This document shows positions 14,152-17,447 of a DNA stretch of 64,000 nucleotides, in pieces. The notes below the pieces were generated by a model. The model was not told the origin of the DNA and ran no database searches. It saw nothing but the letters and a program-made list of their open reading frames with translations. Made by a program: the position numbers and the translations under genes. Origin of the DNA: a bacterium (GTDB taxonomy: Bacteria; Acidobacteriota; Thermoanaerobaculia; Multivoradales; JAHEKO01); NCBI GenBank assembly GCA_024224155.1, contig JAAENP010000154.1:62001-126000 (forward strand). The letters run 5' to 3'. Position 1 is the stretch's first letter; each line of letters starts with the position of its first letter.

Positions 14152-15191
14152 GTCAGCCGCTCCAGCTCGCGATCGAGCCAGACCCAGAAGGCGCCTTCCG
14201 GCTCGGCCCGGATCGGCAAGTGCGCCAAGGGGCTTTCGAGACGTCCGAGAAGCTTGACGTAGTCTTTGGTCGTGGTGAGGATCCAGTCGGCGGCGGACTC
14301 ACGCGCGGCGCGCTCGATCCTGGCGAGGTCGACCTCCCGGTAGGCGTGGTGATCGCCGAATTCGAGCACTCCCTTGACCTCATTTGGGAGTCGGGCGACG
14401 CTTTCCGCGAAACGCACCGGGTGGGCGATTCCGGTGACCAGGAAAACCGAAGCGTCCGGAGGCAGGGGCTCGCGCCGCTCAGTGGTGGCGCCGAGCTCGC
14501 TGGTGCGGCTCGAGAAGCCGGGACCGCGGAAGCCGTAGGCGGCCAGCGCCCGAGCGAGTTGCTCGCCGCTGCCGGCGCCCGAATCCAGCTCCTCGATGCC
14601 TGAGAGAATGACGGCGGAGGCGCGCTCAGCCGATGCCAGGGGCTCCCGGAGCCGGCCGGAAGGGGGCAGCCGTCCGCCAGCGAAAGGGTCCCGTGCGGGG
14701 AAGACCAGGATGTCGAGCTCGCGCTGCAGGCGCAGGTGCGAAAAGCCGTCGTCCAGCACGAAACAGTCAGGTGGCGCCGGCAGCCGCTCGATCGCGTGCC
14801 GGCCGGCCAAGTAGCGGTCTCGACCGACGATGACCGCCACTCCCGGCAGCTCGGCGGCCAAGGCGACCGGCTCGTCGCCGGCCACCCGCGGCCCCAGCAG
14901 GGGACCGCCTCCGGTGCTCACCAGATGCACCCCGGTTCCCCGTCTACCGTAGCCACGCGATAGCACCGCAACCTGCCTTCCGCTCTCGGCGATGTGTCGC
15001 GCGACGGCGGCGGTCAGAGGAGTTTTGCCGGTTCCACCCCAATGAAGGTTGCCGACGCTGATTACCGGCACCGGGAGTCTCGATGACCTCGATCGATACC
15101 AGCGGCGGCGCAAACTATGGGCCGCGTTGTAGAGGAGCTGCCAGGGGGACCGAGGAGGGGCCGGCGCGACCAGCGGAGCGTCGTTGCTCAT
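14148..15191 (-). CDS. lpxK: Tetraacyldisaccharide 4'-kinase (lipid A biosynthesis)
   Basis: 347 aa. LpxK phosphorylates the 4' position of the lipid A disaccharide at the inner membrane. The P-loop is GGTGKTP, preceded by VPVISVGNLHW; RGYGRRGTGVHLV and VLDDGFSHLRLQRELDIL (the DDGF region) follow. The start at 15191 overlaps the kdtA stop by four bases (ATGA). Alternative upstream starts would add residues with no family support. An ordered chain kdtA, lpxK, lpxL-like, waaF makes Kdo-lipid A and extends the inner core, firm evidence for a lipopolysaccharide outer membrane. Confidence 0.93.
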   Translation of the reverse strand: MSNDAPLVAPAPPRSPWQLLYNAAHSLRRRWYRSRSSRLPVPVISVGNLHWGGTGKTPLTAAVARHIAESGRQVAVLSRGYGRRGTGVHLVSTGGGPLLGPRVAGDEPVALAAELPGVAVIVGRDRYLAGRHAIERLPAPPDCFVLDDGFSHLRLQRELDILVFPARDPFAGGRLPPSGRLREPLASAERASAVILSGIEELDSGAGSGEQLARALAAYGFRGPGFSSRTSELGATTERREPLPPDASVFLVTGIAHPVRFAESVARLPNEVKGVLEFGDHHAYREVDLARIERAARESAADWILTTTKDYVKLLGRLESPLAHLPIRAEPEGAFWVWLDRELERLT

Positions 15192-16462
15192 GTCGACGCG
15201 ACCTGGCCCAGGTGCCGTTCGAGAAAGCTCCGGGTCTTGGTGAGAGCTCCCTGGTTGCTCTCGAATACAATCGCGGCACGCCGGCCCAGGGCGGCGGCGG
15301 CCTCCGGATCTCGAAGCCAACCATCCCAGACCGCCGCCAGATCGCCGGCGTTGCGGACCCGGTTCCAGGCACGGTCGTCATCGAAGCGGGCCTCGATCTC
15401 CTTGAAGTTGTGCATCGAGGGCCCGGCCGCGATGGGTACGCCGTGACAGGCGGCCTCGATCGGGTTGTGGCCCCCCGTCGGCACCAGCGTGCCGCCGATG
15501 AAAGCGCCCGCGCTCAGGCCGTAGACAGCCGCCAGTTCGCCCAGGCTGTCGAGTACCAGAACGTCGACCCTGGGACTCGTTTCCTTCTCGGTGTCGAGGG
15601 TTGCGAGGTCCAGTTGCGACCGCTGCCGGAGACGGAGCCCGGTCTTGGCGAGTCTCGCGACGACGCGGGGCCAGCGCTCGGGATGGCGAGGGGCGAGCAC
15701 CAGGAGGGCGCGGTCACCGTCCCCCAACCGCTCGAAGGCCTCGACGACCTGCTCCTCCTCGCCGCGCATCGTGGAGCCCGCCACCAGGATCGGGCGGCCT
15801 CGCGCCAGCCGAACGATCGCCTTTTCGAGCTCGGGTATCTCGGCCGGGCGCCCGGTTTCGAATTTCAGGTTGCCGGTCACGGTGATTCGGTCCGCTTCGA
15901 CCCCCAGCTCCAAGAGCCTGCGACCGTCGAGTTCGGTTTGAACGGCGAAGGCGGTGATCGGTTCGAGAACCGGTGCCAGGAACCGGTTTAGGAATCGCAT
16001 TCTCCTGAAGCTTCTATCGCTGATCCGGGCGTTCACGACCACGGCAGGGATTCCCCGTCGTCGGACTTCTCGCAGGACGAGTGGCCAGAGATCGCCCTCG
16101 CAGAGAATGAGTCCGGCGGGCTGGAGCCGGTCGAAGAATCGACGGACCGCTAAACCGATTTCGAAGGGCAGATAGGTCACGAAAGCACCTGGAAATCGGC
16201 TCCGGGCCCGCTCCTGGCCGCTGGGAGTCACCGTAGTCAGGACCAGTGGCCGGCTCTCGGGGAGAATCGGCGCCAGACTCGCGGCGACGCTGACCTCTCC
16301 CACCGAAACCGCATGCACCCAGAGAGTCGTTTCGGGCGCGATCGGGACATGGCCCAGTCTCGGAGACAGAGTCGCCAGATAGTGACGGCCGCGCCTCAAC
16401 AGCAGCCACGGGCCGGCGACAATGGCGAGCAGGACGTACAGAAGCTGATAGAGAAGCCACAT
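15188..16462 (-). CDS. kdtA: 3-deoxy-D-manno-octulosonic acid transferase
   Basis: 424 aa, GT30 family (WaaA/KdtA). One N-terminal membrane helix, then HAVSVGEVSVA, the catalytic-region EGDLWP near residue 125, and the CMP-Kdo-binding part with GGHNPIEAACHGVPI. It adds Kdo to the lipid A precursor on the cytoplasmic face. It is the first gene of the minus-strand LPS operon. The ATG at 16462 lies only four bases from the end of the palindromic element at 16467-16646 and has no recognisable Shine-Dalgarno, so the leader and promoter must lie in or beyond that element. Confidence 0.93.
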   Translation of the reverse strand: MWLLYQLLYVLLAIVAGPWLLLRRGRHYLATLSPRLGHVPIAPETTLWVHAVSVGEVSVAASLAPILPESRPLVLTTVTPSGQERARSRFPGAFVTYLPFEIGLAVRRFFDRLQPAGLILCEGDLWPLVLREVRRRGIPAVVVNARISDRSFRRMRFLNRFLAPVLEPITAFAVQTELDGRRLLELGVEADRITVTGNLKFETGRPAEIPELEKAIVRLARGRPILVAGSTMRGEEEQVVEAFERLGDGDRALLVLAPRHPERWPRVVARLAKTGLRLRQRSQLDLATLDTEKETSPRVDVLVLDSLGELAAVYGLSAGAFIGGTLVPTGGHNPIEAACHGVPIAAGPSMHNFKEIEARFDDDRAWNRVRNAGDLAAVWDGWLRDPEAAAALGRRAAIVFESNQGALTKTRSFLERHLGQVAST

Positions 16463-16466
16463 GCTT

Positions 16467-16646
16467 AGCCTGGACTATTCACCAGAATTCTACTGTGGAG
16501 GCGCAAGTCATTGAATCTCCGTCGTTGCGCTCCGTCGGCCTCCTCAACGTAGCTATGGCTACGCCTGCGGAGGCCTCGGTCGCGACGCCTTGTGTCTTCA
16601 ACAATCTGCGCCCCCTCGCTACGAATCCTCGTGAATAGTCCAGGCT
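16467..16646. repeat. 180-bp palindromic MITE-like repeat element
   Basis: The ends are a perfect 16-bp inverted repeat: AGCCTGGACTATTCAC at 16467-16482 and its complement at 16631-16646. Similarity continues inwards (GAATTC...GGAGGCGCA against the complement of TGCGCC...GAATCC). The centre forms a strong hairpin: GGCCTCC...GGAGGCC enclosing CGTAGC-TATG-GCTACG. The whole piece folds as one imperfect palindrome and contains no convincing gene. It fills much of the 355-base gap between kdtA and the sigma-factor gene. No second copy was seen in this window. Confidence 0.75.
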
Positions 16647-16729
16647 GGGTTTGCGCGCTCTTTTGGAGTGGGTCAACCGTCGAGCCGCGACCACGACCAG
16701 TTGCGCGCCGAGCCAGTCTGATTCGGCAG

Positions 16730-16735
16730 TATAAT
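16730..16735 (+). promoter_or_regulatory. Candidate -10 box of the sigma-factor operon
   Basis: A perfect TATAAT lies 82 bases upstream of the sigma-factor ATG, in an otherwise GC-rich gap. No good -35 hexamer is found at 16-18 bases; TTGCGC at 16701 is too far. The remaining 16647-16817 interval shows nothing else beyond a short CTTGG...CCAAG hairpin at 16751-16771. An ECF-type self-promoter was not recognised. Confidence 0.3.
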
Positions 16736-16817
16736 TGCTTGTTGGACCGAACTTGGCGAGAGACGCTCCAAGCCTAGACAAGTCAAGTTCGTCTTTCGTA
16801 CTAAGTAACGGATTGGA

Positions 16818-17447
16818 ATGCCTTACCTGGTCCCCAGACACTCGACCGAGGCCGAAAGCGCCGCGCTCACGGACAGTGAGCTGCTGGCGGCGACCGGCCG
16901 GGGTGATCAGCAGGCCTTTGCCGAGCTCGTTGATCGCAAGACCGAGCCGTTGCTCCACCTGGCGTTTCGCATCGTCGGCGACCGCGAGGAGGCGAAGGAT
17001 CTAGTGCAACTCGCTTTCTTGCGTGCCTGGGAGCACCGCGAGCGCTATGACCCGCGTTGGAGCGCGAATACCTGGCTGTACCGCATAACAACCAACCTGG
17101 GCATCGACTACATTCGGGCGCGAAGCACCCGTCGCCGGAAGACCGAGCCGGTGCGCCACCATCTGCGCGCGGTGCACAGCAAGCCCGAGGCCGGCTTCGA
17201 GTCGATGATGGCCAGCGAAACCCTGGCAATCCTGAGGGATCTGGCCAGCGACCTCAGCGCTCGACAGAGCAAGGCCTTTCTACTGCGGGAGGTGGAGGGA
17301 TTGAGCTCGAAGGAGGTCGCCGAGGTCCTGGAGTGCAGCGAATCGACGGTCAGAAACCACCTGTTCGCGGCGCGCGTGAAGCTCCGGCGTGAACTGAGCC
17401 GGCGCTTTCCCGAGTATGCCGCGTTGGCGCGGGATGGCCGCCGGTGA
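16818..17447 (+). CDS. ECF-type RNA polymerase sigma factor
   Basis: 209 aa. Sigma-70 region 2 runs through LLHLAFRIVGDREEAKDLVQ, AFLRAWEHRERYDP and the DNA-melting/-10 part NTWLYRITTNLGIDYIRAR. Region 4 is SARQSKAFLLREVEGLSSKEVAE followed by the recognition-helix part ESTVRNHLFAARVKLR; regions 1.1 and 3 are absent, as in ECF factors. The next gene, overlapping by four bases (GTGA), encodes a membrane zinc-finger protein that should be its anti-sigma factor. The pair heads the secretion/pilus operon, so it probably controls that operon; its target promoter is not identified. Confidence 0.9.
   Translation: MPYLVPRHSTEAESAALTDSELLAATGRGDQQAFAELVDRKTEPLLHLAFRIVGDREEAKDLVQLAFLRAWEHRERYDPRWSANTWLYRITTNLGIDYIRARSTRRRKTEPVRHHLRAVHSKPEAGFESMMASETLAILRDLASDLSARQSKAFLLREVEGLSSKEVAEVLECSESTVRNHLFAARVKLRRELSRRFPEYAALARDGRR

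Follow-up and report, generated by a model that had tools for sequence, protein, structure and literature searches.

A palindromic MITE-like repeat with IS1380-type ends lies in front of kdtA in an acidobacterial genome

The kdtA leader and its palindrome

The window we analysed is a 64,000-nucleotide stretch of an acidobacterial genome in which the lipopolysaccharide gene kdtA (or waaA), whose product is a Kdo transferase of 424 amino acids (best match to the NCBIfam kdtA/waaA models 2.8e-95, under those models' curated cut-offs), lies divergent to an ECF-type sigma factor gene with a long palindrome between the two (Table 1). This palindrome had been described in the original prediction as a 180-bp element (16467–16646) with perfect 16-bp inverted ends, palindromy through almost its whole length and a strong central hairpin, and all of these are present: the 16 bases at one end are the exact reverse complement of the 16 at the other, a repeat finder returned 24-nt arms matching at 92%, and the + strand is predicted to fold into one long hairpin of -91.8 kcal/mol (z -11.3; the mean of 200 shuffles was -52.7 with a standard deviation of 3.45, and none reached the native value), as is the - strand (-105, z -11.3). 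We set the boundaries of the element against other copies, as three of these in the window's own genome (L002, L003 and L004) read CCTG...CAGG bounded by CTAG on each side and so reveal the ends of the repeat. The element proper is 176 bp long with perfect 14-bp tips (16 bp counting flank), and the AG/CT on the outside of those 16-bp ends is part of the 4-bp flanks. The central part is matched by our core model R1 (at G000:C154:78515-78599). Rfam covariance models gave a single match, below the gathering score and outside the element, and membership of an Rfam family was rejected; a consensus scan found no sigma-70 promoter or terminator within the element.

Table 1. Features of the kdtA and sigma factor gene region (positions are those of the window).
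Feature	Position	Strand	Basis
kdtA/waaA (Kdo transferase)	15188..16462	-	NCBIfam kdtA/waaA models; start conserved in relatives
Left flank TTAG, fits YTAR target	16465..16468	.	Flank comparison
Palindromic MITE-like element, 176 bp	16469..16644	.	Other copies' boundaries; 57-sequence alignment; fold z -11.3
Left terminal inverted repeat CCTGGACTATTCAC	16469..16482	+	Perfect reverse complement of right end; IS1380-type end
Conserved core hairpin (model R1), apex CTCAACGTAGC-TATG-GCTACGCCTGCGG	16515..16599	+	R1 match E 3.4e-18
Right terminal inverted repeat, minus strand reads CCTGGACTATTCAC	16631..16644	-	Inverted-repeat finding; IS1380-type end
Right flank CTGG	16645..16648	.	Matches left flank at 2 of 4 bases
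Conserved ATTATACT motif, likely kdtA -10 region; + strand reads AGTATAAT	16728..16735	-	TATACT in 22/24 leaders; far side of element
Divergent ECF-type sigma factor gene	16818..17447	+	Divergent neighbour of kdtA in 23/24 genomes

Insertion of the repeat at kdtA

We found kdtA in 24 of 25 genomes, the window's own included (leaders L066–L089). The repeat is present in two of these leaders and at different places, as the copy in the window's genome (G000) lies between ATTATACT and kdtA, 6 bp from the ATG, and the copy in a genome from another genus (G003) lies upstream of ATTATACT; the other 22 leaders contain none of it. Because the two positions differ and the copies belong to different subfamilies, the insertions are independent, and because the repeat is absent from this place in 22 of the 23 relatives and elsewhere in the 23rd, the kdtA copy reads as a late insertion. 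The kdtA/sigma factor intergenic region is about 355 bp long in G000 and about 175 bp without the element, which falls within the range of 109–413 bp seen in the other 22 genomes measured; a base-exact empty site was not obtained, the nearest leaders being too diverged.

The distance of four bases between the palindrome and the kdtA start codon noted earlier is correct for an end at 16467, and becomes six for the 176-bp element. No Shine-Dalgarno match precedes kdtA in the window, so it was right that no ribosome-binding site remains there, and the same is true of 23 of the 24 leaders overall (the exception has a Shine-Dalgarno-like match within the last 20 nt, at a spacing of 1 nt with which it is unlikely to work). 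The repeat thus replaced nothing, since what is missing in the window is missing from 23 leaders, nearly all of them element-free.

The ATTATACT motif is conserved ahead of kdtA in this order: a TATACT is found in 22 of the 24 leaders (0.38 expected from shuffles), at 14–119 nt from the start codon except in G000, where the intervening repeat sets it 271 nt away. Five genomes have it only 14–18 nt from the start, with no Shine-Dalgarno sequence there, which suggests leaderless or near-leaderless kdtA transcripts in those genomes. Read on the other strand, ATTATACT is a perfect TATAAT facing the sigma factor gene, and so it may work in either direction; the consensus scan called no sigma-70 promoter at ATTATACT or beside the element. 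The motif is closer to kdtA than to the sigma factor gene in 19 of 21 genomes where both distances were available (G000 and G001 are the exceptions), and these distances favour, without proving, a role for it at kdtA. We also noticed by eye a CGTCTAG motif (in the kdtA sense; window 16770–16805) which recurs in the kdtA/sigma factor intergenic region of many relatives, and the CTAGAC...CGTA read towards the ECF sigma factor gene could be that gene's own promoter.

In the predicted fold of the presumed leader plus first codons (301 nt) the whole hairpin is kept, with the start codon just outside it. The original prediction had proposed that the element replaced the expression signals of kdtA or now supplies them. 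Supply of a promoter and/or of ribosome entry would suit an element which ends six bases from an ATG that has no Shine-Dalgarno match and whose tip leaves AGG 6 nt ahead of that ATG, and outward promoters are reported for some IS1380-family elements in passages of PMC9330008; we nonetheless consider it very improbable given that no sigma-70-like site lies inside or adjoining the element, that leaders without it likewise have no Shine-Dalgarno sequence, and that ATTATACT is retained on its far side.

A dispersed multi-copy family

A DNA search of the window's genome located the repeat at nine places, which we count as eight because a flank common to the matches on contigs C143 and C252 suggests a single copy that the assembly broke in two. 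The search of relatives found matches in 23 of 59 genomes (own genome counted), and counts of the end pattern, forward plus reverse, were 17 in G000, 3 in G001, 78 in the congener G002 and 183 in G003 (4, 0, 2 and 1, respectively, for a reversed-pattern control). Rather than being single-copy and present to the same extent at the kdtA of distant relatives, which had been named beforehand as the mark of a local regulatory leader, the repeat is multi-copy, dispersed through its own genome and those of relatives, and absent from its kdtA position in them, and we reject a local single-copy leader. Carriage by plasmids or phages was also rejected, with no match of the window copy to plasmids or of another copy (L187) to plasmids and phages.

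A 19-base stretch of the core was found without mismatch on 65 contigs in the species collection, from Acidobacteriota/Thermoanaerobaculia as well as from MAGs titled Deltaproteobacteria, Nitrospirae, Actinomycetota, UBA2219 and DeMMO2_54. Most of these matches sit in palindromes of about 175–180 bp, some in longer ones, while some are cut off by contig ends and a few have no long palindrome; one on a Hymenobacter contig is probably due to chance, and the core model gave 0 matches in that genome. Full-length copies occur in MAGs labelled Nitrospirae, Deltaproteobacteria and Actinomycetota, and although MAG labels can be wrong, the non-acidobacterial MAGs are nonetheless multi-copy, with 12, 11, 7, 9, 2 and 3 copies apiece. 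Matches to model R1 occur in 30 of 247 genomes from the window's phylum and in 45 of 297 from the phylum of the Deltaproteobacteria MAG.

We note that some core-bearing palindromes of the Acidobacteriota do not have CCTG/CCCG ends, some having other symmetric ends instead (L005, L007, L008 and L009 in G000, and L127 in G006). Many contigs of G003 (e.g. C24, C44, C107 and C194) start or stop inside the repeat, which seems to be a main cause of assembly breaks in this genome.

Constant form and target flanks

The family was represented by 88 non-redundant full-length copies, of which 70 are 174–177 bp long. Identical 4-mer flanks are found in 35 of the 88 (CTAG/CTAG in 30, CTAA/CTAA in three and TTAG/TTAG in two), with direct duplication proven by only the five CTAA and TTAG cases, since CTAG is its own reverse complement and the remaining 30 cannot prove direct repeats. 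Two further copies (L202 and L235) have inverted flanks, CTAA/TTAG, and part of the CTAG may therefore belong to the element. At the level of the family, five true direct repeats against two inverted cases indicate a target-site duplication. The window copy itself has none, as TTAG and CTGG agree at two of four bases, and so this copy would be older or its duplication decayed, if one was ever made.

The original reading of the palindrome as a possible MITE is borne out by these data, as the family combines a constant length within 70–300 bp, too short for a transposase gene, conserved terminal inverted repeats of IS1380 type, 4-bp YTAR flanks and many dispersed copies. In a fixed orientation, the window copy is 85–87% identical to two copies from G002 and 62–74% identical to the remaining copies, compared to 66–70% and mostly 52–63%, respectively, in the opposite orientation.

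IS1380-family elements with the same ends

We sought IS1380-family transposases (PF13701) in 59 genomes and compared the tips of the elements carrying them with the repeat. L150 (from G042) has CTAG|CCCGGATTTCTCAC at both tips, and L058 (from the congener G002) has CTAG|CCTGCATTATTCATG at one tip and CTAA|CCTGGAAAATTCATAAGG read from the other; both are NCBIfam IS1380 equivalogs above the cut-off. Two more IS1380 loci, L274 (from the repeat-rich G221) and L151, have one such tip each, and partner-like elements were seen in G002, G042, G221 and G030. Because two IS1380-family elements share the ends and flanks of the repeat at both tips, IS1380 is likely to be its mobiliser. Such insertion sequences would be the parents of the repeat, having the same type of terminal repeat, CC(C/T)GnAnTTCTCAC, and YTAR flanks, but the repeat has no transposase and is 176 bp long compared to about 1.65–1.75 kb for L058 and L150, and we noticed nothing alike in the interiors past the tips.

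The window's genome has four PF13701 matches, none bearing repeat-type ends, and no repeat copy was detected in G042, the carrier of L150, in our search of relatives. L060, L065, L155, L158, L269, L273 and a number of fragments were rejected as partners, since ends of this type do not lie at a plausible position in them. A second IS1380 lineage is present in the window's genome (L061 and L063 on G000:C395), and its transposase is preceded by a sequence resembling CCGGATTTCCCAGAT. Thirteen distinct repeat-bearing genomes were checked, under 16 entries of which three pairs (G221/G596, G160/G597 and G052/G598) appear from size and common contigs to be one genome each. PF13701 was matched in only three of the 13, in one case below the cut-off, and the lack of detection in the other ten is weak evidence of absence as draft assemblies break at these repeats. 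It might be read as a sign that another transposase moves the repeat and that the IS1380 ends are a convergence on a common CCYG...TCA motif, which we regard as unlikely when L150 has CTAG next to the identical 14-base end at each tip, the congener's L058 matches at both tips, and L274 and L151 match at one.

Conserved pairing of the hairpin

The alignment of 57 sequences has 21 invariant columns and a consensus fold of 41 pairs, 34 of which have changes on both sides. Pairing is maintained in 92.3% of cells compared to 74.0% in shuffles (and falls to 35–41% in a control where one side was slid by 1 to 3 columns), and mean conservation is higher in the unpaired columns (0.82) than in the paired ones (0.75). 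Across phyla, 56 of 57 copies have the same T-G (U-G) mismatch at columns 58 and 125 of alignment A1. Leaving out this constant T-G, there are 42 G-T and 87 A-C cells compared to 448 cells changed on both sides; with so few wobble intermediates, correction or selection at the level of DNA would fit better than selection on RNA, bearing in mind that the copies are related.

Using a simple and crude ORF caller we could classify the neighbours of 37 of the 88 copies (45 had no called gene on one side and six were far from one). These 37 comprise ten with (-,-) and nine with (+,+) neighbours, ten between divergent and six between convergent genes, and two within a called ORF, so that 35 are intergenic and there is no sign among them of an orientation bias towards neighbouring genes. 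The alternative suggestion of a structured RNA repeat is therefore upheld in as far as pairing is conserved, and not in the placement of the copies, which is unbiased and includes sites between convergent genes. The covarying pairs and the conservation of unpaired columns would suit a cis-regulatory leader acting on the downstream gene, but the unbiased orientation argues against such an RNA, as do the scarcity of G-T wobbles and the absence of this copy from orthologous leaders, and with neither a fixed orientation nor conservation at orthologous genes we find this explanation scarcely plausible. An IS1380-type MITE remains our preferred reading of the repeat.

The core within different ends

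The core has the consensus CTGCGTTG...CTCGACGTA[CG]-loop-[CG]TACGCCTGCGG...GCCTTG, with its mismatches conserved. Within IS1380-type ends it is found in the Acidobacteriota and in the MAGs labelled Nitrospirae, Actinomycetota and Deltaproteobacteria, and in several genomes of the G291 phylum (that of the Deltaproteobacteria MAG) the core model also matches palindromes with other arms and ends. Their ends read GGGG(C)GATAA... (GGGGCGATAAG...) in G524 and G566, CCGGC..CGCCAGCC... in G581, G471 and G352, GTATTTGCTCACAGGGC... in G328, and TACCAATT...AATTGGTA in G586. Almost every one of the 16 cores compared contains the blocks CGTTG (in some as a close variant), CTCGACGTA, TACGCCTGCG and GCCTTG (two of 18, L117 and L202, did not fit the search expression). 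Conversely, two G002 copies (L094:276 and L095:282) keep the arms and have the core apex swapped for a hairpin, GGGACACC...GGTGTCCC.

It is possible, though we advance it tentatively and on the less probable side, that the central hairpin is an independent module recognised by a common factor, with different transposon ends having been repeatedly fitted around it. This would define a class of modular mobile palindromes by core rather than by ends. Within the library searched, we found no paper on the core, its spread or its change of ends; the titles retrieved with core strings include none on such repeats, and the repeat is not described in the titles, openings of abstracts and passages retrieved for IS1380 with MITE or palindrome.

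Comparison with known repeats

The Correia/NEMIS, ERIC and RUP elements have other hosts and other ends than the window repeat, and differ from it also in that its pairing and core are conserved across phyla. They are likewise small, hairpin-forming MITEs that can be transcribed, and Correia transcripts are cut by RNase III, according to passages of PMC10969869 and PMC3733652. Passages of the former also describe Chunjie, a MITE of Geobacter uraniireducens of 178–235 bp with 38 copies, which like our repeat has conserved terminal and direct repeats and is intergenic, with one copy in an operon, the likeness being one of description (PMC10969869). Geobacter metallireducens has 24 predicted short RNA elements, intergenic and multi-copy, whose central palindrome GRCGTAGCGCTGCTACGCC resembles the core apex CGACGTAG...CTACGCC of many repeat copies, but these are described as RNA, and the passages concerned mention no terminal repeats, flanks, transposase or other phyla (PMC2700814). 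Many family members fit GRCGTAG...CTACGCC as given in those passages, and the window apex has AACGTAG, differing at the first base.

Conclusions

We think it highly likely, judging from these comparisons, that the window repeat is a non-autonomous, wholly palindromic MITE which IS1380 transposases move in trans and which inserted before kdtA. An IS1380-family transposase would have moved the window copy into a YTAR-type target in the kdtA/sigma factor intergenic region, close to the start codon. If ATTATACT is the kdtA -10 box, kdtA transcripts would carry the element in their 5' untranslated region as a 176-nt hairpin, which RNase III may cut, with kdtA presumably starting without Shine-Dalgarno help like its relatives. 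Most likely the element either modulates the expression of kdtA or is simply a burden on it, and would supply none of its signals.

The kdtA copy is an ordinary insertion and serves as a caution, as a dramatic leader palindrome beside an essential gene proved to be an insertion, and the ribosome-binding site that seemed to have been lost there is equally missing in element-free relatives. The interiors of MITEs usually drift fast, unlike the hairpin of this repeat in which pairs covary and unpaired bases are fixed across phyla. Most surprising, and the part worth following, is that the core persists while the transposon ends around it change, and with these three properties the recognition of such a hairpin becomes a testable question.
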